From positions 1-52,313 of the IMG/VR virus record IMGVR_UViG_3300028024_000013: a stretch of 52,313 nucleotides of DNA; one strand, written 5' to 3'. Of the stretch, positions 1 through 34,568 are shown piece by piece (positions within the stretch are counted from its first letter, which is position 1; each line of letters starts with the position of its first letter). The notes under the pieces were generated by a model. That model was given only the letters and a program-made list of their open reading frames with translations, was not told the origin of the DNA and did no database searches. The translations under genes were made by a program, and so were the position numbers. Source of the DNA: a virus.

Positions 1-12
1 GGTCGAATCACC
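1..12. repeat. Left copy of 12-bp terminal direct repeat (putative cos overhang)
   Basis: The sequence GGTCGAATCACC is repeated exactly at the right end of the window. When the ends are joined, the site reads GGGT-CGAATC-ACCC, a short hyphenated dyad like lambda cosN. It lies just upstream of the small terminase gene, where cos sites sit in lambda-like phages. A 12-base 5' overhang filled in at both ends would produce this exact redundancy. An assembly overlap is the alternative, but 12 bases is short for that. Confidence 0.65.
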
Positions 13-246
13 CGCAGTTGGCGTTGGAATGGGGCCCACCAGATTCAACGCTAGCCCCAAGGTGAGCAGCACGCATAGAGCGCTCCCTGAGACAGGGGTC
101 CATCTGATGTCCTCACCACTGCCCTGCCATTGAGTGCATCTTTTCGGTGCAACACTTAGCTCTCATTGCGCACCCGCACATCGGCAATAATCCCGCAGGT
201 TATTGATTGCTCTGGTGCGCTGCATGCTCATTAAGACAGTAGCCGG
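1..246. other. Non-coding cos-flanking region
   Basis: Together with 52257-52313 this forms a roughly 300-bp stretch between the Z-like gene and the small terminase gene across the circular junction. I find only very short open frames with no good ribosome site. A minus-strand frame running through the junction has a hydrophobic stretch, but no convincing start. Terminase-binding sites (cosB/cosQ analogues) would be expected here; I cannot define them by eye. Confidence 0.5.
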
Positions 247-1014
247 CTATCTGAATGCCGTGGCCAGTGCCTGTCTCATGGCCAGTGCGAACTCGAGCTT
301 GAACCGGCTACGTGCAGCCTGGTCAGCCACCTCAAAGAATCGCAATCGTCTGCGATATGACGCCCTGCTCACGAAGAGGAATACGGGCTTGATGCTCGAG
401 CCGAATCCGAACTCTGTCCTGACGTAGATCCCGGGCTTCAGCTTCTGGGTACGTTGCGAGGGTGGCCACGTGGAGAAGTAGAAGGTCGGTCGCTTTGTCC
501 TGCTCCTGCGGCGTCTCAGTCTCGAGCGTGCTGTGGTGTTGGCTGTGGCATCGAACTGGGCCTGCAGGTCAGAGACGATCTTGGTGAGCTGGGATCTCGG
601 AACATTCCCGTATGCGTCCAGTGGGATCAGCGATGTGGGAACAGCGAACGCATTGGGCGGCATCTTGCCCGCTGCGATCAGCCTTCGCTCGAATCCCTTG
701 CGGGCTCGCTGTCCACCGTAGATCTCGGACTTCAGGAACTTGATCGGGACGATACCCCCGCCGGTGGGGTCATCCTTGATCTTCACCAGTGCCCAGAGCT
801 TGTTCTTCCGGGCGGCCTCGACAAAGGTCGAATTGAGGGTATATCGGGTCGGTCTGTCGAAGACCCGGCCGATTTCCTCGATTACCTTCTGCTGGGCGAA
901 CTTTGCGGTTCGGGTCAGAGCCAGAGCGGTGGCAAACGGCACCTGCTCCCGACCCATGCGGGAGAGGTGGTTCTCGATCTCGTTGATATCGCCCTGGACG
1001 GAGTACTCAAGCAT
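247..1014 (-). CDS. Putative minor tail protein, lambda gpZ-like
   Basis: A 255-residue basic protein. The N-terminal part is helical (roughly residues 10-50), with a VFDRPTRYTL motif. A GGQRARKGFE motif follows, then a segment near residue 165 with many arginines. This pattern recurs in phage structural proteins of the gpZ/virion-morphogenesis type; assignment is by resemblance only. In lambda, Z lies between FII and U. Here that slot has no such gene, and this copy lies at the far end of the genome, as the last gene before cos. It is probably a tail or tail-completion component, co-transcribed with the appendage block. Confidence 0.45.
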   Translation of the reverse strand: MLEYSVQGDINEIENHLSRMGREQVPFATALALTRTAKFAQQKVIEEIGRVFDRPTRYTLNSTFVEAARKNKLWALVKIKDDPTGGGIVPIKFLKSEIYGGQRARKGFERRLIAAGKMPPNAFAVPTSLIPLDAYGNVPRSQLTKIVSDLQAQFDATANTTARSRLRRRRSRTKRPTFYFSTWPPSQRTQKLKPGIYVRTEFGFGSSIKPVFLFVSRASYRRRLRFFEVADQAARSRFKLEFALAMRQALATAFR

Positions 1015-1039
1015 ACTGCCCAGCCCAGGGAGGAAAACA

Positions 1040-1258
1040 GTGAACTGCGAACATCAATTCGTGGCCGTGGAAGAGAGCAAGTCCGTCACCTTTGCAGGCA
1101 TATTCGGTGTCGTTCTGTTCCTGTTCGGCGGAGCGGTCTGCTTTGCCAACGTGATCTTCGGGGCGCTGATCATCGTTCTGGCCATTATCATCAGCATGAG
1201 TGGCCGAAAACGAACCGTCATCAAATGCGCGAAGTGCGGCGAAATCAGCGCTGCCTGA
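1040..1258 (+). CDS. Small two-TM zinc-ribbon-like membrane protein (putative moron)
   Basis: A 72-residue protein on the strand opposite to all its neighbours. The GTG start is preceded by a strong Shine-Dalgarno (AGGGAGG, about 6 bases upstream), which favours a real gene over a shadow. A Cys/His pair lies at the N-terminus (NCEH), two hydrophobic segments cover about residues 17-34 and 38-52, and a C-terminal CAKC pair follows. The Cys pairs could form a split zinc ribbon on one side of the membrane. It converges on the gene ending at 1245, with a 14-bp overlap. Single opposite-strand membrane genes in late regions are typical prophage-expressed cargo; superinfection exclusion is possible but unproven. 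Confidence 0.6.
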   Translation: MNCEHQFVAVEESKSVTFAGIFGVVLFLFGGAVCFANVIFGALIIVLAIIISMSGRKRTVIKCAKCGEISAA

Positions 1259-1715
1259 CCTGAACCATCTGCCGGGCCACTCTCGGACGACCATTGACCA
1301 GCACACTGAACACGACCGTGTAGTCCTGCCCGTCCGTTCCGCCCGTGTAATCCGCAAGCAGATTCGTGAATTCACTCACGATCAGCGAACTCACGCTAAG
1401 GCCCGGGTCAGGTACAGCCGTGGGCGCTGAAATCGGATTCAGACCATTGTCGGCTGCAACCATGCACGTCCATGTCACAGAGCCGTCTATCACCGTTGCC
1501 CCGAGTGTTTTCGGCCATACCGGCTCACGACTGCCGCTTGTGCCGCCATTCGATACGAAGGAAAACCCGTTCCCGCGCGTCGGCCTCACGAATTCCGAGG
1601 CATCGTAAACCTCGTTCGGCCTCCAGATGTTCGCGCAGACCTTGTAGAAGCGCAGGATCACGCTGCGCACCTCTGCAGGGTCTTTCACGATGGGCGGGAA
1701 ACGATGCTCGCTCAT
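1245..1715 (-). CDS. Phage appendage protein with a recurrent Trp-rich module
   Basis: A 156-residue protein with no recognised enzyme motif. Residues about 30-85 follow a pattern seen often in phage fibre-type proteins: an IWRPNEVY segment, a glycine/serine stretch, then DGSVTWTCM. That resembles small carbohydrate-binding modules. The C-terminal 50 residues (GQDYTVVFSVLVNGRPRVARQ) also recur in phage structural genes. The start overlaps the stop of the preceding gene by 4 bp (ATGA), so it is translationally coupled. It is likely a virion surface component; the exact role is unknown. Confidence 0.55.
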   Translation of the reverse strand: MSEHRFPPIVKDPAEVRSVILRFYKVCANIWRPNEVYDASEFVRPTRGNGFSFVSNGGTSGSREPVWPKTLGATVIDGSVTWTCMVAADNGLNPISAPTAVPDPGLSVSSLIVSEFTNLLADYTGGTDGQDYTVVFSVLVNGRPRVARQMVQVRQR

Positions 1716-2620
1716 GGGCTCAGTTCAAACACTTCAGTTTCATGCTCGATTTCCATGATGGCCACCGCATCCGCTATCTCGAATGACTCGCGCTGTTTAG
1801 CCAGACCGATCGAGCTCGAGCCAATGAAATTCGAGAGGGAATCATCGAGCGTGGTTTCTATACGCCCCACGGTCGCACCAGGCAGAAGCACGAAGCCCAC
1901 GAAAGTGCTCAGCGCATCTTCGAGCCCGACCTGAATCGTTCCGGTGTAGCTCGGGACCGTATGCGTTCCAGTGAACGCCGCACTTACATCATCGAGCGTG
2001 ACATTTACGGTCCCAAAGATCGTATCGGGCGTGAACGACTGGCCGCTGAAGAGCGCACTCGCATTGCCGAGCACACTTACGATCTGGCCCAGATTGCTCG
2101 CTGGGGCCGTATGCGTGCCCGAGAACGCGGCCGCGCTGTCATCCAGCGTGACACTGATGGTCCCGAGCACTGCACCCGGATCGGTGTACGTGCCCGTCAG
2201 CGCGCAGGATGCATCTTCCAGCGTGACATTGAAGTCACCCGAAACGCCCTGCGCTTCAGAGAACAGCCACGCAATACCGATACTGACCGGAATATCGATC
2301 AGTTCGAGCTGGGCAATCTCGCCAATGAACGAGACGGTCGCGCTTTCGAGAATGACCCCGATTGAACCGGTGGCCGTCCCCGAGCTGGCAAAGAATCCCG
2401 TGAATGCGGCCGCAGAGGCCGGCAACGTGACGTGAATCGATCCCGTGCGATCGATGCTGCCGTCGCCCTTGGGCCAGTGACCCGTGGGCCAGTGCTGGGT
2501 ATTCCAGTGGCCTACCGGCCAGTGATCGTATGTCCCTGTGGTCGGAGTGACATTCGGCCAGTGACGGTCGGGCCAGTGCCCTGTAGGCCAGTGAGCACTG
2601 GGCCAGTGGGTCTGGGCCAC
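1712..2620 (-). CDS. Repeat protein: N-terminal His-Trp-Pro repeats plus about eight beta repeats
   Basis: A 302-residue protein with a GTG start two bases after the upstream stop. Residues 5-50 hold eight His-Trp pairs (HW at 5, 10, 15, 20, 33, 38, 43, 48), seven followed by Pro, in 5-residue steps. The rest is about eight imperfect units of roughly 25 residues with the pattern G-x-I-x-V-T-L-x-D-x-x-A-A-F-x-G-T. The same unit is present three times at the N-terminus of the 837-residue protein at 5801-8314. I know no defined function for either repeat. Context suggests a fibrous or decorative virion protein. The periodic aromatic/His face could bind metal, or pack on a partner. Confidence 0.7.
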   Translation of the reverse strand: MAQTHWPSAHWPTGHWPDRHWPNVTPTTGTYDHWPVGHWNTQHWPTGHWPKGDGSIDRTGSIHVTLPASAAAFTGFFASSGTATGSIGVILESATVSFIGEIAQLELIDIPVSIGIAWLFSEAQGVSGDFNVTLEDASCALTGTYTDPGAVLGTISVTLDDSAAAFSGTHTAPASNLGQIVSVLGNASALFSGQSFTPDTIFGTVNVTLDDVSAAFTGTHTVPSYTGTIQVGLEDALSTFVGFVLLPGATVGRIETTLDDSLSNFIGSSSIGLAKQRESFEIADAVAIMEIEHETEVFELSP

Positions 2621-2621
2621 A

Positions 2622-3833
2622 TTACGGGCTCAGCGTGACAGAGTCACGGTCGTTGCCCGTGTATGTCACGATGGCGCGGGTCGCCACACCATCCGGTGTC
2701 TTGAAGGTTCCACCGACTGTCTCACCGAGCACGGCCGCGAGAATGAGTCGCTGCGCCTGATCCGCAGTCACTGGGGTACTCGCCTGGGATTCGACGACAC
2801 GAGCACCCGAAGCCGCAGCGATTTCTGTCCCGACATCGGAAGCCACCTTGGCGGCCGTGATGGCATCGGCTGCAATCGCAGTAGCCGTCAATACTCCAGA
2901 CTGCATGGCACCGACACTCACATCGAGCCGTCCCGATATCAGACTCGACAGAGCTACGCCATTTACCTGTATGGCGTTGACCTGCAGTACACCGGAGGTT
3001 GCCGGAACAGTCGTGCCGCCAATCTGGTCCGTGTTGGCCGTTACGCGTGCCGTGACTGAAGCTACGGAACCTGAGAGATTGCCCGTGATGTTGCCCACAA
3101 GATCCGAATCGATTTCATTTCCGCTCGTCACCGTGCACTGAATGCCGTGACCCGAAGTTGCTCCACCGATGAAGCTCGCGCCGTTGCCGGTTGCGCCACC
3201 GCTTGATTTCAGACCCTGCGCAGAACCCTGACCGACGAGCTCCAGTGCAATCGCATTGCCTGCGGTTCCCGTCGCCTTGATGGCGCTGCCTGAGGTCGCG
3301 CCACCCACGGCAGAGATACCGATACCCGTCGCACCACCTGTAGCGAGAATTCCTGCGCCTGTTCCATTGCCGGCTGCACTGATCGCGGGCTGGTTAGTCG
3401 AACTGCGGGAGACGAGCAGGCCATCGGAGATAGTGAGCGAGCCTGTGACCGTGAGAGCCGCGAAGGTCGTCGTGCCGGCATTCGTCCCGTTGATATGCAG
3501 GCCACCTGAAGCGCCTGCAGCAGCGGTACCCGAAAAATTCAGCTGCGGATTGAAGGCGACTACTTCACCGATGATCATGTCGGTGGGGTCTGCGCCGGTG
3601 CCTGTCGCATGGAGACACAGAACACCCAGCGTATTCGAATCGGTGGCATTCCCGGCCACCTTGTACCAGCCATTGGATACTTCCGTGACCGCACCAGATG
3701 GCGAGGCAAATGCGCCCGCTGCTTTGCTGATCGTGACCGTCGGAGTAAGACCCGTCTTGCCCGTGACGTGATCCGTACTGTCGGTCATGAAGAACATGAT
3801 CGGATAGGCGGTGGTCGATTGCTGGATCAGCAT
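2622..3833 (-). CDS. Phage fibre-type structural protein, Gly/Ala/Thr-rich
   Basis: A 403-residue protein. The first 95 residues (motifs TTAYPIMFFMTDSTDHVTG and VSNGWYKVAGN) match a domain that recurs in phage appendage proteins. Residues about 110-245 are low-complexity beta-type sequence with repeated GGATSG and GNGTGAG motifs, suggesting a repetitive beta solenoid or fibre shaft. The C-terminal third is alanine-rich, possibly helical, and ends in a short beta segment. No catalytic motif is visible. It lies in the run of late genes between Q and cos and is probably a tail or head fibre subunit. Confidence 0.6.
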   Translation of the reverse strand: MLIQQSTTAYPIMFFMTDSTDHVTGKTGLTPTVTISKAAGAFASPSGAVTEVSNGWYKVAGNATDSNTLGVLCLHATGTGADPTDMIIGEVVAFNPQLNFSGTAAAGASGGLHINGTNAGTTTFAALTVTGSLTISDGLLVSRSSTNQPAISAAGNGTGAGILATGGATGIGISAVGGATSGSAIKATGTAGNAIALELVGQGSAQGLKSSGGATGNGASFIGGATSGHGIQCTVTSGNEIDSDLVGNITGNLSGSVASVTARVTANTDQIGGTTVPATSGVLQVNAIQVNGVALSSLISGRLDVSVGAMQSGVLTATAIAADAITAAKVASDVGTEIAAASGARVVESQASTPVTADQAQRLILAAVLGETVGGTFKTPDGVATRAIVTYTGNDRDSVTLSP

Positions 3834-3842
3834 GCCTGTTCT

Positions 3843-5804
3843 CTAATGAGCATTGGTGCCAAAGATTCTCTGACGCCGTTTACGTGCCTGTGAGGCGCCC
3901 GTTCCCGGTGTCCCAATCGTCCATTGCGGTGACACGCCGTAGGTGTTGAGCGCACTTCCCGCCTTCGTCACACGGAAGTCGTAAATCTGTCCGTTCGAGG
4001 CGTTGCTGCTCGCCTTGAGACACCACTCTATTTCGGTGTAGTCGTCGGTCGTAATGTCGATGGCGGGCGCAGGGTTACTGCTTTCGCACATCTCACCCGC
4101 CACGAAATCCGCCGTTGTCTTGCCACTGGGCGCTGCGAGTTGAGCCGTCGTCGTATCGCTGTCGGCGAACTGCGAGGACAGCGCGAGCTGAATCGGCTTG
4201 TCGATCTGACGCAGCCGGATCATGACCGCAGCACCCGCCGTGTTCGCCGCGTTCGTGCTCGAGGCCGTTGCGGTAAATGTCCCCGCTGCTGAACTCGTGC
4301 CTGATGTCACCGCGTGCTGACACACGATGATGCGACAGTCGTTACCGGTGGAGACCGCAGTATCGGTGTGCTCGGTCAATGCACCATAGGTCATGCCGGT
4401 CTGCGAGAGCGCTTCCGAGGCCCACGTTGCCGTGTCTTCGGATGAGCCAGCCGCTACGAACACCAGATCGCCTGCGGTCACCCCCGGATCGGTGCCGAAC
4501 GTCACACTGAATGCGGTACCCGCACTGTTGTCAGAGCCCGTCGCCGTCGCCGCATCCCAGTTCTTGCCGGTGGTCTTGGTCGAGCGCCAGATCACCGCTC
4601 CACAACTGGTGCCCGAGGTAATCGCGAGCGTCACACTGCCCGATTCGGTCCCGACCGCTTCCCGTCCGAACACCGTGACGCGAATGACGCCCGTGCCCGC
4701 TGCCTCACTGCCCGCACCGCCCGTCACCGTCGCAAGCTGCGTCCAGCCTCCTGCGGGAATCGTAGGCGTTGAGGCATTTGGCCGATTGACCACGGCCATG
4801 AGCAGGTAATCACCTGCCGCTATCGAGGCGGGATATGCAACCGTAGGCGCCGTGGTGCCCGTGTTGGTCGTAGTCCCAATCGTGCCGAACGCGAGCGCAC
4901 CTGCACCGGCGGCTTCGACTTTCGCATAGACCGAATCGCTGGAGAGTTTCGTCTCCAGTTGAAACTGGGTGCTCGCCAGATCGGCCGTCGTATCGATCAG
5001 AAAACGCAGTCGGGTGTTTATTCCCGTCGTTCGCGTGACCGAGGTGTCCTGAGTCGCAAGTGAGGACGCCGCCGTTTCGCTGCCATCATCGGCCCGCCAC
5101 AGAAATCCTTCCTGCGTGGTGGTGGCGCCACCGAATGACCCCGGCGGGGGATCGGATGCCCCGTTGGTGACCGAGCCGCTCGTCGTGAACGTGAACGCAT
5201 TCGGTCCCTGGTCGACCGAGCTCGTATCGTTAAAGTGATGCGAGAAGAGCAGACCCGTCGTGATGACAGGAGCCGTCGCGCTTGCTTCGGCGAGCAGTTC
5301 TGCATTGCTGAATACGCGCGCCCATGCACGGACATGAGCGACTTCACCATTGAGGCTCGTGACCGCCGTCGGATCGGCGAGCTGGCCGATGCGAATGTAG
5401 CGCTGCAGCTGCGAGAGCGCAGTGAAATTCTGCTTCTCGACGAGCGTCGTGTTATCGCCAATGAACCACGTCGTGAGCGGGTTCGCACCCGCCGGACGGG
5501 AGATGGCAATGTAGATCCACGTGTTGATCGGCAGCGGCACGCCCGTGAAGCCGAACCCGCTGCCGTTCGCCGCAGCATCGAACGCGCCCGTGGCGCCTGT
5601 CGTGCCATTGTTGTACGACTCGACGGAGTCAGAACGGCTGTTGCTGAGCTGCGAGAACGAGACGAACGGCTCGAAGCTCGTCCAGTTCACGACCTGCTTG
5701 AACCAGCCCGCGATACACAGCGCATCGGAGGCCGGAGTCAGATCGAACGAAGTCGTCAGGTCAAAGAGAATGTTGGCGCTGGCGCCATTGATACGGACGC
5801 TCAT
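3843..5804 (-). CDS. LamG/concanavalin-like appendage protein
   Basis: A 653-residue protein. The first 210 residues look like a LamG-type jelly roll: CIAGWFKQV, NTWIYIAIS, YIRIGQLAD, GEVAHVRAWARVFSNAEL and LLFSHHFND follow the usual strand order of this fold. Such domains bind sugars or proteins. The remaining 440 residues are Thr/Ser/Ala/Gly-rich beta sequence with several Ig-like stretches (for example GDYLLMAVVN and GDLVFVAAG, which look like an internal duplication about 110 residues apart). The start overlaps the stop of the preceding gene (ATGA). I infer a surface adhesin of the virion. No signal peptide is seen. Confidence 0.6.
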   Translation of the reverse strand: MSVRINGASANILFDLTTSFDLTPASDALCIAGWFKQVVNWTSFEPFVSFSQLSNSRSDSVESYNNGTTGATGAFDAAANGSGFGFTGVPLPINTWIYIAISRPAGANPLTTWFIGDNTTLVEKQNFTALSQLQRYIRIGQLADPTAVTSLNGEVAHVRAWARVFSNAELLAEASATAPVITTGLLFSHHFNDTSSVDQGPNAFTFTTSGSVTNGASDPPPGSFGGATTTQEGFLWRADDGSETAASSLATQDTSVTRTTGINTRLRFLIDTTADLASTQFQLETKLSSDSVYAKVEAAGAGALAFGTIGTTTNTGTTAPTVAYPASIAAGDYLLMAVVNRPNASTPTIPAGGWTQLATVTGGAGSEAAGTGVIRVTVFGREAVGTESGSVTLAITSGTSCGAVIWRSTKTTGKNWDAATATGSDNSAGTAFSVTFGTDPGVTAGDLVFVAAGSSEDTATWASEALSQTGMTYGALTEHTDTAVSTGNDCRIIVCQHAVTSGTSSAAGTFTATASSTNAANTAGAAVMIRLRQIDKPIQLALSSQFADSDTTTAQLAAPSGKTTADFVAGEMCESSNPAPAIDITTDDYTEIEWCLKASSNASNGQIYDFRVTKAGSALNTYGVSPQWTIGTPGTGASQARKRRQRIFGTNAH

Positions 5805-8314
5805 AGGCCGTTACTCGCCAGGAGCACCGCATAACAGCCTTCGGTATGGGCCTGAGCCCACACGAGGATCGAACGGCCATCACCGACGTCTTCGAGGAGG
5901 TTGAACTTGCTGAACGAGCCTGCGGCAGTGGTCGGACTGATCGTCGCGCCACCGAAGGTCACCGAGGTCCAGCTATACGTGCCGGTGAACGGATTGCTCG
6001 GGATCGTCAGCACACGGACGGTGTTGCCGCCGTGGTCGTAGGCGTACACCTTGCCGCTGCGCTGGTGATAGACCGCGCCCGTGCCACTTCCGTATGCACC
6101 TGTCCCCGTCGGAACCTTCTGCGCCCACGTCGCCACCGGGTTATCCGGGTTGAAGATGACGATGTAGCCTTCGAGGTGGCCGATGATGCCGACGCGCTTG
6201 TCCGGCGCGATCACCATCCAGCTCGCATGGCCATTGCCGACCGCGCCGAGCGAGACGTTGTACTGCTGGGCAGTGAACTTGCTCGCATGCATAGACCAGA
6301 GTGACTGGCCGTTCGCATTCGAGCCCACATTCGGACAGCGGAAGAGCTTCCAGCTATTCGGATCGAACGCCGCAGGCCCGCCCTGCGTGTCCATGTTGCC
6401 GCCCTTGACGGGCATCGGATCGCCGTGACGTACCCATGGGGCCGCGGCAGACGAAACAGGGAATGACGTCAGCGAGCGTCTGTCGAACGTCCACGCTTCT
6501 GTCTGGCGTCGGCCGTTCGAGTACGTGCCCTCAGGACCGAATACCCAGAGCTGGCGCGCGGCCCAGAGCGCCGTGTTCCAGCCGTGATAGCTGCGAATCT
6601 TGCCGTCGCTGTAGGCACTGCCGGGGCCGCTGAATTCGACGTCTGCGCCATCGACCGCAATCGTGGGATTGGAGATGCGGAATGCACCCGGCGTATTCGT
6701 GCGCAGGCGAAAGCCGATGACATCGTTGCCGCTCGAGTCGGTATGACCACCCGTGGCCGGCAGGATCAGCTCGCCGTCCCATGGATTGACGACGGCCGGC
6801 GTCCATGCGGTGAACTTCGAGCCGAAGTCGTAGCCGCCCGGAATCGTGGTCGGCATCGCGTCCATCCAGCGATTCGGCGCCGTGCTTCCGAGATGAACGA
6901 CGGTGTTCGTCGCGAGGCTCGTTGCCCATGTCGGAAGCGTCGCGCCTGGTACGTCCTGCGGACACTCGATGAACTCGCGGCTGAAGATGATCGAGGCGAG
7001 ATCGTGATCCCAGCCTGATTCGGGAATGGCGTTTGCCGTCTCACCTGTCGCATTCATGAATGCATTGACGGCGATCGCATTGAACGCCTGCGGCCACGGA
7101 TCGGTCGTGCCGTAGGACCAGACGTAGTCTTTCTTTTCCCAGATCTTCGTGTACTCGCGCTCGTTCCTGCGCGCGACCCACACCTCGACCCACGTGTCGT
7201 TGTTGGGATTCCCGGCCATCACCGGGTTATCGCCACCGCCGCCGTCGTGGCCCGGCTTCACATGGATCAACAGCGTGACGTACTCGTCCGCCGGGAAATT
7301 CCAGCACGCGGTCTGCGTGTTGCTGCCGATGAGACAGGTCGACGAATAGTCCGCGCCCGGCTGGAATTCTCCAGAACCGGAACTGCCCTGCTCGGAGGTC
7401 AGATGCGAGTTCGAGCGATTCCCGAAGTTCGTGTACATCTGGTACACGGCGCTCGGATTCGACTTGACGACGAGCTCCTGATTGAGCGTGCGCGGCTGCT
7501 GCGTACCCAAACCACCCGTGGGTCCGTCACCCGAGGTGAGGATCATGAGCAGCTTGCCGTCGGGCTGGCCGGGCAGGAACCTGCCCGCGCTCATCCTCAC
7601 ACGAGCCTGGATGTAGAAGTCCCAGCCCGGAATGCTGTCCGCGTGAAACCCGCCCGAACCGCCATCACCACGAATCGGATTGGTGACCGTCGACAGATAG
7701 TCGGGGTGGTAGTAGTACCCATCCGCCCATAGGCCCAGCTGAGTCGAGCTCGGCACCCACGTCTTGCGAGCGAGCGTTCCGTTCAGCGCAGGATCGGGCG
7801 TCGCCTTGCCGTTGCCCGGCGAGTTGAGCGGCGAGAAAGGACGTTCCCATCCGCCCTGACAGATGCCACCGGCAGGGACACGACAGCGCACCGCGCCGCC
7901 AGAGATGCCGTCTGGTATCCAGAAGACTTTCGCGGGATCGCTCGAGGGATACTTGAAGGCGTCGAACTCGGAAGACGTCGCGAAGTCATGCGCCCAGACC
8001 ACACCCTTGGCGGTCGAGCGCTTGGTCCAGTCTGCCTGCACAAGAGTGGTATTCGTTCCTCCGCCGGGCTGGGTGAACGTTCCACTGATGCCCGATGTGG
8101 CATTGGCGAGCGTCACGCCAATCGAGCCGGTGCGGTTCGGAGCCGCCGCAAAGATGCCGCGAAACGCCGCAGTCGCACTCTGGAGCGGGCTGTTCAGCGT
8201 TCCCGTTCTGGCCGGAGCCGGCGTGAACGTGCCGCGGATATTCGTCGTTACGCTGGCAAGCGTGTTCGCGACCCGCCCGAGAATCGAGGGCTGGTCAATG
8301 AAGCGAATCGCCAT
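5801..8314 (-). CDS. Large appendage protein: beta repeats, lectin-like centre, propeller-like C-terminus
   Basis: An 837-residue protein. The first 90 residues hold three copies of the 25-residue unit shared with the protein at 1712-2620 (for example IGVTLANATSGISGTFTQP). Residues about 100-430 form a Trp/Gly-rich region (FYIQARVRMSAGRFLPGQ, EYVTLLIHVKPGHDGGGG) resembling lectin or polysaccharide-lyase jelly rolls. Residues about 450-837 have spaced blade-like motifs (VWVFGPEGTYSNGRR, KRVGIIGHLEGYIVIFNP, GKVYAYDHGGNTVRVL), suggesting a beta-propeller or Kelch-like end. The shared repeat suggests docking to the same partner as the 302-residue protein. A receptor-binding or depolymerase role is possible; no catalytic residues can be assigned. 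Confidence 0.6.
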   Translation of the reverse strand: MAIRFIDQPSILGRVANTLASVTTNIRGTFTPAPARTGTLNSPLQSATAAFRGIFAAAPNRTGSIGVTLANATSGISGTFTQPGGGTNTTLVQADWTKRSTAKGVVWAHDFATSSEFDAFKYPSSDPAKVFWIPDGISGGAVRCRVPAGGICQGGWERPFSPLNSPGNGKATPDPALNGTLARKTWVPSSTQLGLWADGYYYHPDYLSTVTNPIRGDGGSGGFHADSIPGWDFYIQARVRMSAGRFLPGQPDGKLLMILTSGDGPTGGLGTQQPRTLNQELVVKSNPSAVYQMYTNFGNRSNSHLTSEQGSSGSGEFQPGADYSSTCLIGSNTQTACWNFPADEYVTLLIHVKPGHDGGGGDNPVMAGNPNNDTWVEVWVARRNEREYTKIWEKKDYVWSYGTTDPWPQAFNAIAVNAFMNATGETANAIPESGWDHDLASIIFSREFIECPQDVPGATLPTWATSLATNTVVHLGSTAPNRWMDAMPTTIPGGYDFGSKFTAWTPAVVNPWDGELILPATGGHTDSSGNDVIGFRLRTNTPGAFRISNPTIAVDGADVEFSGPGSAYSDGKIRSYHGWNTALWAARQLWVFGPEGTYSNGRRQTEAWTFDRRSLTSFPVSSAAAPWVRHGDPMPVKGGNMDTQGGPAAFDPNSWKLFRCPNVGSNANGQSLWSMHASKFTAQQYNVSLGAVGNGHASWMVIAPDKRVGIIGHLEGYIVIFNPDNPVATWAQKVPTGTGAYGSGTGAVYHQRSGKVYAYDHGGNTVRVLTIPSNPFTGTYSWTSVTFGGATISPTTAAGSFSKFNLLEDVGDGRSILVWAQAHTEGCYAVLLASNGL

Positions 8315-8752
8315 TTACGGCCCGATGATGTCCGCGAGCGAGACCGCGTATCGCTTGCCGGTCGCTGCGACGTAGTCGGTCGGTGTTCCCGCCCCGTCTG
8401 TCGCATCCTTGAAATGCAACACACGCGTTCCGTATACGAGAGCTGCGCCCGTCACACTCGCGCTCCATGCGCCGGTCGGGACCCAGCACGGATTGCCGAA
8501 GGGGTCAGTGTTAGCGCCTGCCGCCTGCAGATAGGTCAGTACTCCATTCACCTCAGACCAGCCCGCCTTGTCGAGGACAAGCGGCGTATAGCCGTTCGCG
8601 ATCGAAGGCTGCACGAGATCCGCGGTAACCGTGCTATCGCCGAGACTGTTCCTCGCATTGGTGTACAACACGAGAGTGACGTTCGGACCGTCGATCAGAT
8701 AGCGCTTGGCTATCTCGCTGCGTCCACCGAACGGAGTGCCGCGCAAAGCCAA
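8315..8752 (-). CDS. Hypothetical late protein of the appendage block
   Basis: A 145-residue protein with a probable TTG start, two bases after the preceding stop. A GAGG sequence lies about 9 bases upstream. The frame is open further upstream, but that part reads as a shadow of the neighbour. Visible motifs are YLIDGPNVTLVLYTNARN near the N-terminus and VLHFKDATDGAGTP near the C-terminus. I do not recognise the family. Composition is beta-type without TM segments or a signal peptide. Its position between structural genes suggests a small virion or assembly protein. Confidence 0.55.
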   Translation of the reverse strand: MALRGTPFGGRSEIAKRYLIDGPNVTLVLYTNARNSLGDSTVTADLVQPSIANGYTPLVLDKAGWSEVNGVLTYLQAAGANTDPFGNPCWVPTGAWSASVTGAALVYGTRVLHFKDATDGAGTPTDYVAATGKRYAVSLADIIGP

Positions 8753-8753
8753 T

Positions 8754-9008
8754 TCAGTGCACCTCGATAAGGGACGGCAGGCGGTTCGCAATCTCGCGAC
8801 CGACTTCTTTTCCGTACGCGTCCTGAACTGCAGACTGCAGGCGACGGACCAGCGTCTTCGCGTTCGCCCCATCCTTGCGTGCGCTATCGAGCAGCGTGTC
8901 CCATGTGGGAACGAGACCGCGATCCGCGAGCATCGGCAGGCTGATTTCCAGCGGCACACCGTGCGTGGCATGCCAGCGCCACACCTCAGTGCCGGGAATG
9001 CATTTCAC
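8754..9008 (-). CDS. Small hypothetical late protein
   Basis: An 84-residue protein with a GTG start placed directly after the upstream TGA. The first half (EVWRWHATHGVPLEISLPML) is followed by a predicted amphipathic helical region (about residues 40-80: LLDSARKDGANAKTLVRRL and beyond). No family is recognised. It is unlike its beta-rich neighbours and could be an assembly or chaperone-like factor for one of them; that is inference from position and helix content only. Confidence 0.5.
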   Translation of the reverse strand: MKCIPGTEVWRWHATHGVPLEISLPMLADRGLVPTWDTLLDSARKDGANAKTLVRRLQSAVQDAYGKEVGREIANRLPSLIEVH

Positions 9009-9413
9009 TCAGGGATTCCCGTCCGTGATCGAGGCCGTGCTGATGGCCACAGTCCCGCCCAGCACAATCGAGGTCGAATCGAGCTGGAGATCCCCAGTGC
9101 CGGCGCTCACGGTCGAGACCGTCATGTCCAGCACGTGTGTCGTGCCGTTCGACTGCACGATACGAGCCCACGTTGCCGTGCCGGTTGCCGCCGCAGAATT
9201 CGCAGGCGAAATCGTATTGAGCGTGAGTACGCCACTCGACGCTGCGGGCGCGAACGTCGCATTGCACGTGAGCTGCGCGAGCAGATTGGTTGCGGCGCCA
9301 CCGGTCGCCGGCTGTGTACCGTCATAGATACGCAGCAGGGCCGAGCTGCCGGCCTGTGTCGTGATGGCGTTCAGGCGGTTGTTGCGCAGGGTTACTGCGA
9401 ATCGCATGGTCAT
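9009..9413 (-). CDS. Phage structural protein, beta-type, 134 aa
   Basis: A 134-residue protein starting MTMRFAVTLRNNRLNAITT, with SALLRIYDGTQPATGG, ANSAAATGTATWARIVQSNGT and LQLDSTSIVLGGTV following. This pattern recurs in phage tail or baseplate-region proteins of unassigned function. It is all beta, without Cys pairs, TM segments or signal peptide. It overlaps the upstream stop by 4 bp (ATGA). Probably a trimeric or oligomeric appendage connector; the specific role is unknown. Confidence 0.6.
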   Translation of the reverse strand: MTMRFAVTLRNNRLNAITTQAGSSALLRIYDGTQPATGGAATNLLAQLTCNATFAPAASSGVLTLNTISPANSAAATGTATWARIVQSNGTTHVLDMTVSTVSAGTGDLQLDSTSIVLGGTVAISTASITDGNP

Positions 9414-9595
9414 TTGGCAGCCCTCCGCGCTTCGACTTTCGCGACGAGTTCGTCCGCCGTAGGTGCACGGCCTCCGGTCTCGCGCATGAGTTCCTCGAGG
9501 CCTTCCGCATCGAGGGACTTGCGGGCAGCCTCGATCATGTCGGGCGGCGGCGTGACCGTGCCCCCTAATACGGGTCGATACATTTCAGACTCCAA
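9410..9595 (-). CDS. Small hypothetical protein (61 aa)
   Basis: A 61-residue protein that starts just downstream of the intrinsic terminator at 9594-9620. The first 17 residues are extended (PVLGGTVTPPP) and the rest is predicted helical and charged (MIEAARKSLDAEGLEELMRE). An internal methionine at residue 5 is an alternative start. The terminator tail overlaps its 5' end, so transcripts that read through would have the hairpin close to its ribosome site. No family is recognised. Confidence 0.5.
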   Translation of the reverse strand: MESEMYRPVLGGTVTPPPDMIEAARKSLDAEGLEELMRETGGRAPTADELVAKVEARRAAK

Positions 9596-9620
9596 AAAAA
9601 GAAAACCCGCCGAAGCGGGT
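9594..9620 (-). terminator. Intrinsic terminator inside the late block
   Basis: On the minus strand a 6-bp stem (ACCCGC/GCGGGT) with a TTCG tetraloop is followed by a T-rich tail (TTTTC then seven T). It sits between the genes at 9658-10068 and 9410-9595. A second weaker hairpin (CCTGC/GCAGG, 9632-9647) lies just upstream. Genes downstream on the same strand would need read-through. Confidence 0.85.
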
Positions 9621-9657
9621 CAGTGAACGAACCTGCAGAGAAGCAGGCAGAGGGATC

Positions 9658-10068
9658 TCAGGAATCGGCTAGACGGAAATTTGATGGCGCAGCGAGTTTC
9701 GCAAACGCTAAAGGGCCAGCCACCCGGGCTGTTTCACCCTCGATGCCGGCGCCGTTGACCGCCCTGATCGAAAAATGATACGTGCCGTTCGCATTCGCGA
9801 GTGACGGCGCAGTGAGCAGATCGTAAACATCGACATCTGCCAGCATCACATCGGGTGTGGCCGTGTCATCCGGCGGCGAGTCCTTCTTGATCCGGATGTT
9901 GTACCCTGCCGCGCCCTCAACCTTGTCCCACCTGAGAAAGCGATTTGCCACGAGCCATGCTCCGAATGATGTTTGGACTCGCCAGTCGAAACTGACGAGA
10001 ATCGAGAAATCGAGAAGCTCTACGCGAGCGCCAGGCTCGGCGAGCTCGTACACCACATCAGCGCACAA
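9658..10068 (-). CDS. Fibronectin-III-like domain protein
   Basis: A 136-residue protein. Residues about 45-125 follow an FN3-type pattern: LRWDKVEGAAGYNIRIKKD, a middle loop, then GTYHFSIRAVNGAGIEGETA. FN3 domains are frequent in phage tail surfaces and may bind carbohydrate. The annotated TTG start overlaps the upstream stop by 11 bp; in-frame GTG codons a few residues downstream are alternatives, because no clear ribosome site decides. It is the last gene before an intrinsic terminator. Confidence 0.55.
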   Translation of the reverse strand: MCADVVYELAEPGARVELLDFSILVSFDWRVQTSFGAWLVANRFLRWDKVEGAAGYNIRIKKDSPPDDTATPDVMLADVDVYDLLTAPSLANANGTYHFSIRAVNGAGIEGETARVAGPLAFAKLAAPSNFRLADS

Positions 10069-10723
10069 GACTGCCGCCCACGATGCTCTTCGCGCGGATG
10101 TCCGAGATCAAAGGACCTGCCGTCGCGCCTGTCGAAGACGGCAGTACGGTCCACGATACGAGACAGGTGCCGGTATCGATGCCATCGAAAGCCGAGAGCG
10201 TGAACTGTCCCGATCCGACGATGATTGGCGTGCCGACGATGACCTTCGCCGTCTCGTCGTAGGCCGTGCCGGTCGGGGCCTGTCCGTCCTGTAGCCTGAT
10301 GACGAGCGCATCGCTCTCAGGGTTCGAGAAGAATCCCGAGACGCCCTGACTGACCGCCACACCCACCGTAAACGTCAGCGCCTGATTCGCCCCGTTCGGG
10401 ATGACGTTATTGACGTACTGTTTCTGGTTCGGACCAAATCCGAGAAGCTGTCGGCTCCAGTGCGCGACGAAGAACGACTGACGTGCGCTTGAGCCGAAGG
10501 TCTGGATAGTCGCGATGCCATCGGGACTCAGCGTGACCTGATTGCCTTCCTGATCGATGTTGTCGTAGACGGCGAAGTCGCCCTGAAACACCGAAGGGTT
10601 CGCGTCCGACCAGATCGACTGGCTGTTTTCGCTGTCAATGGTCTCGACCAGTGTCCGGCCGAGTGCACCCGCATAGGTTGCAAGCCGCGGCAGCGGCGAG
10701 ATGCCATCGAAGATGCCGATCAC
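10058..10723 (-). CDS. Hypothetical late structural protein
   Basis: A 221-residue protein with a GTG start overlapping the upstream stop (TAGTG). The N-terminal region includes VETIDSENSQSIWSDANPS and VTLSPDGIATIQTFGSS. The C-terminal half has beta-strand patterns (IIVGSGQFTLSAFDG). No enzymatic motif, TM segment or signal peptide is seen. Coupled spacing with the genes on both sides suggests that it works with them, probably as an appendage subunit. I do not recognise the family. Confidence 0.5.
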   Translation of the reverse strand: MIGIFDGISPLPRLATYAGALGRTLVETIDSENSQSIWSDANPSVFQGDFAVYDNIDQEGNQVTLSPDGIATIQTFGSSARQSFFVAHWSRQLLGFGPNQKQYVNNVIPNGANQALTFTVGVAVSQGVSGFFSNPESDALVIRLQDGQAPTGTAYDETAKVIVGTPIIVGSGQFTLSAFDGIDTGTCLVSWTVLPSSTGATAGPLISDIRAKSIVGGSLVR

Positions 10724-11286
10724 TACATCACCAGTACGCGATCGCCGACGGCAAAGGCGGCATCCGGGGCCTGCGTGAACGTAACGCTGGCGCTACCGGA
10801 TGACAGCGTATGCGTCGCGATCACAGCGTAGTTGCCCGCGATTGAAGCCCCATACCCCGAATAGATCTGTCTGTTGCGCAGACGGTTGGACGGCAACCCG
10901 ATTCCCGCGATGACCATGCCGAGCGAAGTCACCGAGGACACCACCCCCGGATACATCAGGACGTAGGTGCCGCGATTCAGGATCGAGAAGCAGGCGAGAA
11001 TCGCATTTACCGTTTCGCCGTCGATGATGGCGCCGATGAGCGCGATCGAGTAGTCCTCGTGCGCGACGTAGAAGGCATCCGTCGTGTCGAGCGTGCCGTA
11101 CTGAAGGCCGGTTACGGAATCGAAGTTCGGCGTATCGACAATGCCAGTCGTGAACTCGGTTGTGCTGCCGCCCTTGTAGACGCGCAGTGATCCCGCAACC
11201 GAGCGCGCGATCGAGCCACCGGTCTTCGCGTTCGTGCTCCACGGGAATTTCACCGGCTGGCCGGGCAGATGATCGCCGAGATACAT
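10723..11286 (-). CDS. Recurrent phage appendage protein (YLGD family)
   Basis: A 187-residue protein opening MYLGDHLPGQPVKFPWSTN, then SLRVYKGGSTTEFTTGIV, TGLQYGTLDTTDAFYVAHEDY and SIALIGAIIDGETVNAILACFSI. This order of motifs recurs in many phage late regions, usually annotated only as structural or hypothetical. The C-terminal 60 residues form a separate beta-type unit (SASVTFTQAPDAAFAVGDRVL). It is probably a virion surface or tail-fibre base component. Coupled to the next gene by a TAGTG overlap. Confidence 0.6.
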   Translation of the reverse strand: MYLGDHLPGQPVKFPWSTNAKTGGSIARSVAGSLRVYKGGSTTEFTTGIVDTPNFDSVTGLQYGTLDTTDAFYVAHEDYSIALIGAIIDGETVNAILACFSILNRGTYVLMYPGVVSSVTSLGMVIAGIGLPSNRLRNRQIYSGYGASIAGNYAVIATHTLSSGSASVTFTQAPDAAFAVGDRVLVM

Positions 11287-11290
11287 GTCG

Positions 11291-12004
11291 TTACGTGCCT
11301 GCCGGGTTCGATCCGGATACGGTTCCGCCCGGAGCGGGCGCCCAGTGGAAGCTGTGTGTCACGAGACCAATCGGAAGTGACCAGTCCGTCACACCTGAAA
11401 AGAGTCGTACGACCGTGATGGAGAACGGCAGCGCCGCCGTCTCGCCGGTCGTATTGATGCCATACACCGTGAACGGGCCGAAATTGCCCCGCACGGTCGG
11501 CGTACCGTTGATCGTCCCCGTCAGTTCATCAAACGTCAGTCCATTGATGGCGGCATCGATGTCCGGCGCGATACGAAACGAAGTTGCGCCCGTGAAGACG
11601 TTGCAGACCTTCGCCGCGATCGTCTGGTCGACCACATACGATTCCGAGGAGATGACTCCTGCGAGAATCGGCGCGATCGGTGAAAAGACAATCAGCGAGC
11701 CGAGATCGCTTGGCGTCGCGAGACCTGATGTCGCCCCGGTCCCGATGAGTTGGATCGCGACACCAACCTGGCTCGTCGAGCCTGATGGCGTGCCGGACAG
11801 GACCCCCGCCGAGAAAGTGAGCCCGAGTCCAGCGAAGGTCCCAGGCGTCGCCTCCGTGACGTTGACGACTTCCTCGTCGGACTGCCAGCGCGCGTTGAAA
11901 TCGATCGGCGGGATGGCCACGCCCTGCTGAAACGTGATCGTCGCTAAGTCAGGTCCGATGAAGCGAGGCGCGAGACCGGATATGCCCCAAACGACATCGG
12001 CCAT
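11291..12004 (-). CDS. Protein with putative Ig-type (He_PIG-like) domains
   Basis: A 237-residue protein. Two stretches fit the He_PIG/cadherin-like signature: LGLTFSAGVLSGTPSG near residue 60 and INGLTFDELTGTINGTPTV near residue 165. Two or more beta-sandwich domains in tandem are therefore likely. No signal peptide or TM segment is seen. It follows the large exported beta-helix gene at one base spacing and may form a stalk or adaptor with it; that link is inference. Confidence 0.6.
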   Translation of the reverse strand: MADVVWGISGLAPRFIGPDLATITFQQGVAIPPIDFNARWQSDEEVVNVTEATPGTFAGLGLTFSAGVLSGTPSGSTSQVGVAIQLIGTGATSGLATPSDLGSLIVFSPIAPILAGVISSESYVVDQTIAAKVCNVFTGATSFRIAPDIDAAINGLTFDELTGTINGTPTVRGNFGPFTVYGINTTGETAALPFSITVVRLFSGVTDWSLPIGLVTHSFHWAPAPGGTVSGSNPAGT

Positions 12005-12005
12005 T

Positions 12006-15000
12006 TCACTGCACAGCCCCGCGGTTCTTCCACACTACGCCACGCGATCCGTCATCGTTCGTCGTCATGAGCCAGATCGGACTGTTCACCACCCGCGTCA
12101 CGCTCGTCTGCACGGTGATGACTCCGGTCAGGGGGTTGCCACCGTCCGCAATCTGCGTGGGGTTGCACTCGGTGACCTTGGATGTCGCCGCAGGACCGAC
12201 GCAAATCCAGTCGCCGTATTCCCGATGGAGTCCGCCCCACGTATAGGATGCCATGCCGTAGTCGTCCTTCATGACGAAGGGATCGGCGACCGTGAACGAT
12301 GTCCCGCTACCCACCGCGGAGACTTTCGTGATCGGCGCGGCATCACCAAGGCCAACCGTATTCGTCGGCGAGAGCGCCAGGCCGGCCCTGCTCGGGACGG
12401 GGGTAGTCGTGCCGTTCGCGAACTTCAGCGGCGTGAGCGTGTTGTTGCAGACGTTCGCTGGCCACTTCGTGCAGTCGGCCCACGAGACCGTGCCCGAACC
12501 ATTGCCGCCGAGCGAGAATTGAGCCGCGGTGCCAGGCCCGCTTGCGATGTTGTAGTCGTAGACCGAGTCCCGCCAGTCATTGGCGTACGTGCCCTTGCCC
12601 AGCACGGTCATGTTCTTCTTGATCCATGGCACGGTCGTCGAGCCACTGTTGCGACCGTCGAGCATGCCCATGAAGATGTTGTTCCGGAGCAGCACTCCGG
12701 AGCAGTTGCGCGTGTCGGCGTTCGTCGGAAATGACACGTCGAGATCCGTCGGGAAAATCCCGGCGTGGCCGTACATCGTGTTGTTGTAGATCTTCTGCTG
12801 GCCAATCGTGTACGGCAGCACCGAATTTGCAGAGCCGAATGACAGTCCGCAGGTCGTCGACATGGACGCAACCGGGGATGTGATCTGCTTGTTGTAGAAG
12901 TAATTGCCCCGGACGATGACGCCGATGCCCCAGAGCTCCATGGAGTAGTTCCACGTCCTGCGCTCGCCGTCTGCGCCGGCGTCGTACATCTCGTTGTCTT
13001 CGACGGTCACCGGCCCGTAGGCTGCTGGAAAGGCAATCGAGCCGTGGACCTGATCGTGATTGCCGGCGCCTACTTCGAGCGTGTGATTGCCACGGGCCGT
13101 CGGATTGCGGGGCGGCACATCGGCGAAGTCACCCCAGTAGTTCGAGACCACATTCCGCCGCGCCACCTGCCATGGGCCGCGCAACATCAGGGTCTTGTGC
13201 CCCCCGCGCCGGAAGATTGAATCGATGACGACCGAGTGATGCGAGCCGAAGAAGAAGAGATCGCCCGAGTCATCCTTGTTGTAGGTGCCATCGGCGAACA
13301 GCCCCTGGTTGGCGCCGTGGTCGTAGCCCTCGACGTTCTTCACCAGCATGTAGCCGGAATCCTGAAAGATGTCGTTGGCCGTAAATCCATTACCCGTGCC
13401 GCCGCCGTGCCAGGTCTGGTTGATGAAGGCGATGTGCGAGGACTGACGCACCAGCAGCGCATGGCGGTTGGTATAGCAGTTGAAGATCGGCGCCGTGTTG
13501 TTGCGAGCACAGCCGATGTTGAACTGCGAGTGATCCCCGAGCCTCAAGCCGGTGCGATCCTCGAGGCCCCCGTCCACAATCCAGTAATGGCAATTGGTCC
13601 AGTCGCTGATGCCCTTGTCGTTGCCGGCATCGGAACTGAAGATGATGTGATCGCCCTGACGGACACGGACCGTAATCTCGTGGCCTGCCGTGCCACTCAC
13701 GCCGTTGCAGACGAGCTTCGGCCAGATCTCGGTCGCCCCGGGAACCGTCGTGCGCAGCTCGAGAATGTCATCGGGCACCCGCTGCGAAATCGCAGCCGTC
13801 GCGAGCTGCAGGTCGGTGTAGTTGCAGCCGACCCGGCACGCGGTATGCGTCGGGTCCGGAATGGTGTCCGGGGGTTTGTCGCACTCCGGGCAAGAATCCC
13901 GGAAGCCACCGCTGGCCGCAATCTGCACCTGATTCTGACCCGTGCGGGATGCTGCAAGCGATTTCCAGCCCGTCCCGTCATTCCAGCGCCAGGCGAACAA
14001 GGAGACCGCCGTGGGAATATGGAACCGGCCGTTGGTCTCTATCGTGAAATCCTGCACGCCCGAGCCGTTCTTGCAGCCTGCCCCCGGGGTGCGGGTAACC
14101 GTCCGGACATGGACCTGACTGTTGCTCGTGAGGTCATTGGCCGGATTCGAATCGCCGAACCGGTTGACGTGACCTGAAGCGGTCGAGAATGGAATCAGCG
14201 TCCCGAGATCGAAGTAACACTCCCCTGTCGGCGCATCGATAGTAACGGCCTTGCTCGCGACCGTACCGACATTCGTCGTCACCCTGACTGACCGCGATCC
14301 GAAACGGCAGTTGCCCTGAACCGCATCCACCTGGATATCGGTCGCAGACCACGAGTCCACGGTGAACGTCGAGGTCATGGCGCCGTCGACGCACTGGACG
14401 CTGCCCGTGCCCTGACTCGCACCGAACCCCGTCCCGATGACGTGCAGGTTCGTTTCCGTGGAGGTCAGGACGTTGTCGCCCGAGACGCTCGTGATCGCCG
14501 GGGCGCCCCCGCCCGAAGCTTTCAGGAAGATCATTACCGAGTTCTGCGTGGAGACACTCGGATTGCCGGTGATCAGCAGGTCCTGCTGGGCAATCGCGGT
14601 CAGCGTCGTCTGGATCGAATACGCGACCGCCATCGCGTTCGAACCGAAGGCGGCGTCTGCCGTCTCGGTGAAGTTCGGCGCAACCGCAACGCTCGTCCAC
14701 GTGTTGTTCGAGCGGCCAACGTAAATTGCCGCTTCATTCGCCGCGGTCGGTGTCAGCGCCGGGATGCGAAAGGCAGTCTGTGAACTCGCGTTCGCCGTGT
14801 TCGAGACATCCACGACCGAGGCGATGTTGGTCGTATCGACACCGCGGAAGACCAGACACTGCGCCTGCAGCGTCGTCGTAGTGCCGGGGTTGACGGTAGG
14901 ATTGGCGTCAGATCCCGCCGCAATGTGACCGTAGAGCTTCGTGCTGATGCCATTGGCGGCGAGCTCTGTGAATCCTGAAGGCGTCGGAACGGTGCCCGAC

Positions 15001-15170
15001 CCGTCGAACTCGATAGCGACGATCCGCAGGTCGTTGGCTATCGCGGCCGGGCAGACGACAGTCTTCGTCGTCCCCGTATTCGATTGCATGACGGCGCCAG
15101 AACCCACAAAGGTAATGGCCGCCAGCGCCCATCCGGGCGATAGCAGGATGAGCGCAAGCAGATAGCGCAA
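12006..15170 (-). CDS. Large right-handed beta-helix protein with Sec signal peptide
   Basis: A 1,054-residue protein from the TTG at 15170. That start is preferred because GAGG lies 6 bases upstream and it yields a clean signal peptide (MRYLLALILLSPGWALA, cleavage after ALA). A longer TTG start at 15203 would lie inside the terminator hairpin. After about 220 beta-type residues comes an IPT/TIG-like domain (about 235-330). A Cys-rich linker follows, then, from about residue 460 (GCNYTDLQLATAAI), a parallel beta-helix region of the pectate-lyase/NosD type. There are about 20 cysteines, which suits an oxidising compartment. It is the first gene after Q and its terminator. Sec export is unusual for a virion protein; it may be a secreted or surface protein carried by the phage, or a spike with an unusual assembly route. 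Confidence 0.7.
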   Translation of the reverse strand: MRYLLALILLSPGWALAAITFVGSGAVMQSNTGTTKTVVCPAAIANDLRIVAIEFDGSGTVPTPSGFTELAANGISTKLYGHIAAGSDANPTVNPGTTTTLQAQCLVFRGVDTTNIASVVDVSNTANASSQTAFRIPALTPTAANEAAIYVGRSNNTWTSVAVAPNFTETADAAFGSNAMAVAYSIQTTLTAIAQQDLLITGNPSVSTQNSVMIFLKASGGGAPAITSVSGDNVLTSTETNLHVIGTGFGASQGTGSVQCVDGAMTSTFTVDSWSATDIQVDAVQGNCRFGSRSVRVTTNVGTVASKAVTIDAPTGECYFDLGTLIPFSTASGHVNRFGDSNPANDLTSNSQVHVRTVTRTPGAGCKNGSGVQDFTIETNGRFHIPTAVSLFAWRWNDGTGWKSLAASRTGQNQVQIAASGGFRDSCPECDKPPDTIPDPTHTACRVGCNYTDLQLATAAISQRVPDDILELRTTVPGATEIWPKLVCNGVSGTAGHEITVRVRQGDHIIFSSDAGNDKGISDWTNCHYWIVDGGLEDRTGLRLGDHSQFNIGCARNNTAPIFNCYTNRHALLVRQSSHIAFINQTWHGGGTGNGFTANDIFQDSGYMLVKNVEGYDHGANQGLFADGTYNKDDSGDLFFFGSHHSVVIDSIFRRGGHKTLMLRGPWQVARRNVVSNYWGDFADVPPRNPTARGNHTLEVGAGNHDQVHGSIAFPAAYGPVTVEDNEMYDAGADGERRTWNYSMELWGIGVIVRGNYFYNKQITSPVASMSTTCGLSFGSANSVLPYTIGQQKIYNNTMYGHAGIFPTDLDVSFPTNADTRNCSGVLLRNNIFMGMLDGRNSGSTTVPWIKKNMTVLGKGTYANDWRDSVYDYNIASGPGTAAQFSLGGNGSGTVSWADCTKWPANVCNNTLTPLKFANGTTTPVPSRAGLALSPTNTVGLGDAAPITKVSAVGSGTSFTVADPFVMKDDYGMASYTWGGLHREYGDWICVGPAATSKVTECNPTQIADGGNPLTGVITVQTSVTRVVNSPIWLMTTNDDGSRGVVWKNRGAVQ

Positions 15171-15187
15171 AGTTAGCCTCGTATATG

Positions 15188-15214
15188 AAAACGCCCCGCG
15201 CAAAGGCGAGGCGT
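15188..15214 (-). terminator. Intrinsic terminator between Q-like gene and late block
   Basis: On the minus strand a 9-bp stem (ACGCCTCGC with GCGGGGCGT, one G-U pair) is followed by TTTTC. It lies 19 bases after the stop of the Q-like gene and just before the first late gene. This matches the position of lambda tR', which Q overcomes. The T-tract is short, so strength is uncertain. Confidence 0.7.
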
Positions 15215-34254: not shown

Positions 34255-34568
34255 GGCGTTGGTGTCGTTGTATTGGTGGTCACGGTCGTTGCCTGCGTAG
34301 TTGAACTTGCGGTCTGCGACCAGTCACGGCCGGCGTCGCTGTAGATCTTGTAGACCCACGTTCCAAGGCCTGTCACCGCCGTAATGACCACGCTCGTCAT
34401 GCCGGAGGCTTCGAGTCCTCGGGCGGCGGCCGGCAGCGCGAAGTACCAGTGCAGGATTTCACCGACCACGTGCGCGAGCCACCAGCAGTACATGAACAGG
34501 ATGAGTCGGGGGACGACGCGCCAGTTATCGAATATTTCAGCAGCATCCAGCCAGCGTTGCTTGTTCAC
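34251..34568 (-). CDS. Putative holin
   Basis: A 105-residue protein. Two hydrophobic segments (about 20-43, VPRLILFMYCWWLAHVVGEI, and about 55-73, MTSVVITAVTGLGTWVYKIY) suggest a two-TM holin, with a Thr-rich tail. It lies between the endolysin and spanin genes, with 4-bp overlaps on both sides. Other small TM proteins upstream in the cassette could be antiholins. Confidence 0.65.
   Translation of the reverse strand: MNKQRWLDAAEIFDNWRVVPRLILFMYCWWLAHVVGEILHWYFALPAAARGLEASGMTSVVITAVTGLGTWVYKIYSDAGRDWSQTASSTTQATTVTTNTTTPTP

Follow-up and report, generated by a model that had tools for sequence, protein, structure and literature searches.

What is the function of the roughly 15-kb gene block that lies between the Q-like gene and cos in this phage, in the place where lambda-type lysis genes are expected? 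The window, i.e. the whole stretch of DNA analysed, comprises one virus record (52,313 bp) and, by its gene content, represents an uncultured lambda-like siphophage; no DNA similarity to named phages was found. We consider it likely that the block encodes an exchangeable, late-expressed receptor-binding side-fibre module of the virion.

Genome frame and composition of the block

Genes for TerS (51654-52256), TerL (49925-51886), portal (47779-49389) and a fused protease-capsid protein (45682-47634) were identified, together with those for a major tail protein, distal tail protein, integrase and annealing protein. The J-like tail hub (36801-38771, minus strand; phrog_5616 and phrog_31) is short, at 656 aa, and its sequence retains the hub plus a C-terminal beta domain. 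The genes behind it encode lysis or small membrane proteins, among them an endolysin (34565-34960) and a spanin (33769-34254), in agreement with the initial annotation, which had placed the lysis genes there. No other fibre-like gene was found behind J, and no sheath gene in the window phage. Exact copies of the 12-bp sequence GGTCGAATCACC occupy both ends of the window (1-12 and 52302-52313). Among 242 loci (designated by L numbers below), it recurs only once more, as the starting 12 bases of L237; in this independent contig, a TerL fragment, g73 and portal are 99%, 90% and 95% identical to those of the window. The linear record of phage F10 is likewise cut inside the Z-TerS gap. On these grounds the window ends probably represent cos, sited between Z and TerS, with a 12-bp overhang.

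The block consists of 14 minus-strand ORFs (thirteen had initially been counted over 15.2-1.2 kb) running from 15170 (or 15203) down to 1245, mostly with gaps of -4 to +9 bp, and makes up 28.6% of the genome, close to the one third estimated earlier. It is preceded by g17 (15233-15793, minus strand), which is Q-like by position and shares 35% identity with a gene that precedes the late genes of L216, and followed by the Z-like g01 (247-1014, minus strand), located before TerS and matching phrog_1924 ‘minor tail protein’ (E=1e-71), with weak similarities to Minor_tail_Z and Neck1. The placement between Q and cos thus stands as first described, and the block occupies the slot in which a holin, endolysin and spanin were looked for. 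A Z-like gene is found in the same place in F10, LESphi2 and phi2LM21; the Q-to-Z slot contains holin, endolysin and Rz genes in the first two and is almost empty in the third. Among more than 100 Z-bearing loci surveyed by a composition rule, only L028, L087 and L095/L139 (the last two being one phage) showed a large cluster of beta-type genes ahead of Z; since so few loci carry such a cluster, such use of this slot is uncommon. No relevant report of siphophage fibre genes placed ahead of the terminase was found in a literature search. Several Z-bearing loci have, upstream of Z, relatives of another gene of the window (18627-19733), the product of which has an N-terminus like that of ParB and, as judged by eye, a DPPW methyltransferase domain of the MT-A70 type.

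Block proteins are rich in S, T, G, N and A, and their charged-residue fraction is typically 0.07-0.14 vs the genome mean of 0.24. Composition therefore bears out the initial description of the products as beta-rich for most of them; g09 (84 aa), g11 (57 aa) and g12 (97 aa), as well as the adaptor-like g03, are not low in charge. The domains proposed earlier fared less well. He_PIG-like similarity was seen in g13 (E=0.005) and g15 (8e-5), in both cases under the Pfam cut-off, and FN3-like similarity in g12 was weak (J-like FN3, E=6e-4), while LamG, propeller and beta-helix assignments found no support in Pfam, NCBIfam and PDB sequence searches. PDB sequence searches with g06, g07, g16 and the repeat proteins gave no meaningful match, and the block yielded no verifiable trimeric-fibre or depolymerase domain.

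The first block gene, g16 (12006-15170), encodes a beta-type protein of 1054 aa that apparently starts with a Sec signal peptide; its tblastn search against named phages yielded one partial match, in a Maribacter phage. It is followed by three further beta-type genes, g15 (11291-12004), g14 (10723-11286) and g13 (10058-10723). IMG/VR relatives of g14 and g16 were not found, nor were relatives of g13-g16 in the Q-to-Z slot. Downstream are the weakly FN3-like g12 (9658-9951), 49% identical to a protein of L002, g11 (9410-9583; 51% in L002), g10, the small g09 (8754-9008), not beta-type by composition, and the small g08 (8315-8752), conserved beside the g10-type gene in L002 (47%) and L028 (40%). 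The product of g07 (5801-8314), with a conserved repeat N-terminus and a variable remainder, is a probable variable receptor- or polysaccharide-binding protein; tblastn with g07 against named phages found nothing, and its AlphaFold model, built from two sequences, was discarded (pLDDT 28). The beta-type g06 (3843-5804), LamG-like by eye only, has no database match, and in the likewise beta-type g05 (2622-3833) the first 85 aa are 74% identical to the protein at the same position in L002.

The repeat protein g04 (1712-2620), with homologues in L002, L028 and L016, consists of an HWPxx string, eight 25-residue units and an ExR-type C-terminal tail. Its 25-residue repeat is common to the g07 N-terminus (z=10), which confirms one of the two shared repeat families of the initial annotation; the similarity between the g16 N-terminus and the g06 C-terminus is marginal (z=3.9).

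Garland-family and adaptor-like proteins

Two proteins of the block could be linked to characterised phage structures. The first, g10 (9009-9413), shows whole-length profile similarity to phrog_3758 (E=6e-27), and a 25-sequence g10 profile matched PDB 9rkv_A (E=7e-17). The 9RKV entry models the tail fibre of phage 7-7-1, whose garland protein gp014 forms dimers surrounding the fibre tips. The AlphaFold model of g10 (pLDDT 84.8) has the same chain as its best Foldseek match (E=5e-7, TM 0.76), followed by weak matches, mostly to phage tails and baseplates. Based on the sequence profile and the predicted fold, g10 is assigned to the garland family. PHROG files this family under ‘head’, and we considered a role of g10 as a capsid decoration protein, which is weakened by the garland structure match.

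The genomic neighbourhoods of g10 homologues are as follows. In phage Milano, the gp127 gene adjoins that of the tailspike and closely precedes TerL; the Milano study describes gp127 as garland-forming and as having the fold of T4 gp8 and A511 gp105. Milano gp127 appears to be the homologue of 7-7-1 gp014, in agreement with the record numbering (YP_007006559 = gp014). In Vibrio phage CKB-S1, the homologue is annotated as ‘structural protein’ and adjoins a putative baseplate assembly gene, in VP16T it has the same baseplate-side place, and in Seuss a ‘virion structural protein’ follows J.

The second protein is g03 (1245-1661), fibre-tail adaptor-like, in which an N-terminal REPxWP domain (phrog_20658) precedes a C-terminal domain similar to gp77 of phage GP4. 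Direct comparison with PF23148 (GP4 gp77) gave E=0.028 and 15.4 bits, under the Pfam cut-off of 27. An HMM of gp77-like IMG/VR proteins had g03 as its sole match among the 75 genes of the window (E=2.5e-6), hhalign of the g03 family against the gp77-like family gave E=2e-5 with a probability of 77%, and the g03 homologue in L215 clears the Pfam Gp77 cut-off (27.5 bits). The gp77-like profile in turn matched PDB 8jou (E=7e-14), a structure of phage GP4 (PMC13243795). Judged by these sequence intermediates, the g03 C-terminal domain belongs to the GP4 gp77 fibre-tail adaptor family. The REPxWP domain, by its match to phrog_20658 ‘head decoration’, is the only part of the block with similarity to capsid-decoration proteins.

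Genes situated just upstream of gp77-like adaptors can end in tandem strand-like tails of ~10 residues with a recurring R or ExR, as seen in g04 and in L016, L028, L009, L026, L087, L209, L216, L222 and L242. A C-terminal motif of this kind was present in 6 of 21 adaptor neighbours and in none of 5215 other proteins, figures that speak to specificity only, the pattern having been derived partly from the same proteins. These tails possibly donate strands to the adaptor. At the opposite end of g04, the N-terminus (2460-2620) is the string of HWPxx pentapeptides, and the homologues in L002 and L212 carry YW-rich strings. The HWPxx string could be the thread bound by garland dimers.

Recurrence and exchange of the cassette

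The gene order of the block, which the initial annotation had proposed to seek elsewhere, was found in L028 (g10-g08-g07-...-g04-g03-Z-TerS-TerL) and mostly in L002 (g12-g11-g10-g08-(1117-aa protein)-...-g05-g04-TerS-TerL, the terminases being named by eye). Other loci have related cassettes in other places. In L016, L017 and L022, the garland gene, a repeat protein and a gp77-like adaptor directly follow J; in L061/L064 and L047 (named by eye), the garland gene, beta-type proteins and a repeat protein are inserted between the portal and capsid genes, with garland-to-repeat inserts at 478-5564 in L061 and 5777-10687 in L047; and L216 (genes named by eye) has its block between TerL and portal. 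The cassette thus occurs between Q and terminase, TerL and portal, or portal and capsid genes, or behind J. The blocks of L212 and L216 also contain GP4 fibre I, gp80 (E=4e-18 and 5e-13). Among named phages, Rhodococcus phage Madraxi has a gp77-like gene plus minor tail genes in front of the terminase, Gardann has a gp77-like gene among minor tail genes, and in Burkholderia phage DC1 a gp80-like gene is followed in turn by those for a repeat protein and a gp77-like protein and by four genes for tail fibres.

A tandem-repeat protein, mostly with a period of 20-26 aa, was encoded within seven genes of the garland gene in 32 of 48 distinct IMG/VR loci vs 4 of 120 control windows (Fisher p=3e-18). 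All 48 loci had three or more genes downstream of the garland gene; they were distinguished only by a non-identical garland protein, so that some are related and the p-value is optimistic.

Receptor-binding proteins usually combine a conserved anchor with a variable distal part. At the g07 position, L028 has a 26%-identical protein and L002 a different one, with the repeat N-terminus kept. The L002 protein (10904-14257, 1117 aa) shows, by eye, a repeat N-terminus and FN3, glycosidase-like and beta-helix-like parts. The head genes of L087 are mostly 65-85% identical to those of the window (portal 82%, capsid (MCP) 67%, g68 85%; Z 66%, g03 51%, and TerL only 29%), and none of the L087 genes that separate g03 from the Q-like gene resembles any in the window.

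The garland and adaptor families, the conserved cassette and the wholesale replacement of its variable genes argue for the fibre half of the original proposal, a receptor-binding or capsid-decoration system; capsid decoration received no positive support, but the ‘head’ filing of the garland PHROG and the portal-capsid position of some cassettes leave it some plausibility. The same proposal saw the block as a possible second adsorption apparatus besides J, which we find less likely: J is short and lysis or small membrane genes lie behind it, so the block is probably the main side-fibre set.

Attachment, export and known fibre systems

If so, the block, as the first genes behind Q, would be expressed late and its products incorporated into the virion. 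The large variable proteins (g07 and probably g05, g06 and g13-g16) would carry binding or polysaccharide-degrading domains. Dimers of g10 would tie these proteins together, as the garland does in the Agrobacterium phages Milano and 7-7-1, and g04, with its 25-residue repeats, would link them to the virion. The g03 adaptor would dock the assembly on the tail, with J reduced to a hub. We infer the presence of block proteins in virions, as well as which of them would contact the receptor.

As for the attachment site, the tail tip seems more likely than the neck because of the garland structures, whereas gene positions are compatible with a neck or head site. The fibre set could be anchored at the neck, collar or capsid, as whiskers or head fibres making the first contact, with J, which keeps its hub and C-terminal beta domain, responsible for final binding. 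This is consistent with the cluster ending at a Z-like gene with weak Neck1 similarity beside the head genes, with the portal-capsid garland cassettes of L061/L064 and L047 and the TerL-portal block of L216, with the filing of the g03 N-terminal domain as head decoration, and with the docking of GP4-type fibres on the collar around the tail (as cited). We nevertheless regard it as the less probable option, as the garland located by cryo-EM is at the baseplate, the garland gene accompanies baseplate or J genes in VP16T, CKB-S1, Seuss and L016, and the gp77-like gene of Gardann is among minor tail genes.

Side-fibre membership of the first block genes deserves separate attention. A terminator-like hairpin (15192-15208, minus strand) occupies the gap between the Q-like gene and the block, a tR'-like place; similar hairpins were found in L002 and L087, and L028 shows none at this place. 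These hairpins fit a tR'-like terminator relieved by Q. No promoter-like site was found on the block strand. It is plausible that the block and the head genes across cos form one transcription unit, as initially annotated. A second, strong terminator-like hairpin (9604-9621, minus strand) parts g12 from g11; L002 has a hairpin at 9959-9979, just before its garland gene. Furthermore, g16 starts with MRYLLALILLSPGWALA-A. This apparent Sec signal peptide is at odds with a virion component whose assembly is cytoplasmic. Signal-peptide starts were predicted for 23 of 456 beta-type proteins vs 34 of 2517 other proteins in these loci (odds ratio 3.9, p=4e-6, by a simple, uncalibrated rule). Beta-type proteins with apparent signal peptides, encoded in or beside the cassettes, were observed in L087 (4117-4665), L211 (579-2798), L215 (2567-3475), L047 (6713-9606) and, by eye, L028 (9412-9816).

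Accounting for these features, g16-g12, upstream of the 9.6-kb hairpin, may encode exported adhesin-like proteins acting on the host surface or in the medium (in exclusion, aggregation or as decoys), leaving only g11-g03 as the fibre cassette. Among the 3.9-fold enriched signal-peptide proteins are those encoded first in the blocks of L087 and (by eye) L028, two genes adjoining the garland gene of L047 carry apparent signal peptides, and the L002 cassette starts at g12, with nothing like g13-g16. Against this, the signal-peptide rule is uncalibrated, the 9.6-kb terminator could be read through under Q, and g13-g15 have no apparent signal peptide, which makes such a division tentative and, in our view, rather unlikely. 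More speculative and more doubtful still is a widespread portable cassette of garland, exchangeable adhesins, a string protein with 20-26-residue repeats and a gp77-type adaptor, hopping between late-operon positions in siphophages as a neck- or head-anchored side-fibre network, with Sec-exported members added or acting outside the cell. Lysogenic-conversion (moron) adhesins of the bacterium, suggested by the beta-rich proteins and the g16 signal peptide, were rejected as highly improbable, because the garland and adaptor families consist of virion proteins of phages, the block between Q and cos is oriented as late genes are and showed no promoter-like site on the strand it uses, and several virus contigs use the same slot.

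The reading as an exchangeable side-fibre module assigns a likely role to an extensive class of anonymous beta-rich genes beside phage head genes, and indicates that siphophages reuse fibre parts of contractile phages (garland) and podophages (gp77/gp80) as a movable cassette. The garland-repeat-adaptor signature could serve to locate receptor-binding modules distant from J, outside usual host-range searches. If the signal peptides are true, part of such cassettes would be exported. Where the fibres attach, and why some members have signal peptides, are the questions raised.

With regard to known systems, the garland proteins of 7-7-1 (gp014) and Milano (gp125/gp127) are of the same family as g10 by profile and fold, and in Milano the garland and tailspike genes are just upstream of TerL, like the window cassette. 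Both phages have a contractile tail and wedge baseplate, whereas the window belongs to a siphophage that has a J hub. The link to the T4 gp8 and A511 gp105 (BW3TFN) fold comes from a published fold comparison and a weak A511 Foldseek match, not from sequence. The podophage GP4 shares gp77 with the g03 C-terminal domain, and its gp80 fibre I with the relatives L212 and L216; GP4 and DC1 are short-tailed, and the window has no gp80 but a garland protein instead. Siphophage LSH1 (PMC13243795) has a virion-detected module, gp34-36, away from J and with a GP4-fibre-like member; the likeness is by description only, and this module, unlike the window block, lies behind the lysis genes. The Pseudomonas phages F10 and LESphi2 share the Z-TerS-TerL-portal order and protease-capsid arrangement with the window, but have lysis genes where the window has the fibre block. 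Overall, the parts resemble known phage fibre connectors, and what is new is their combination and their position beside the packaging genes, not behind the tail-tip gene.
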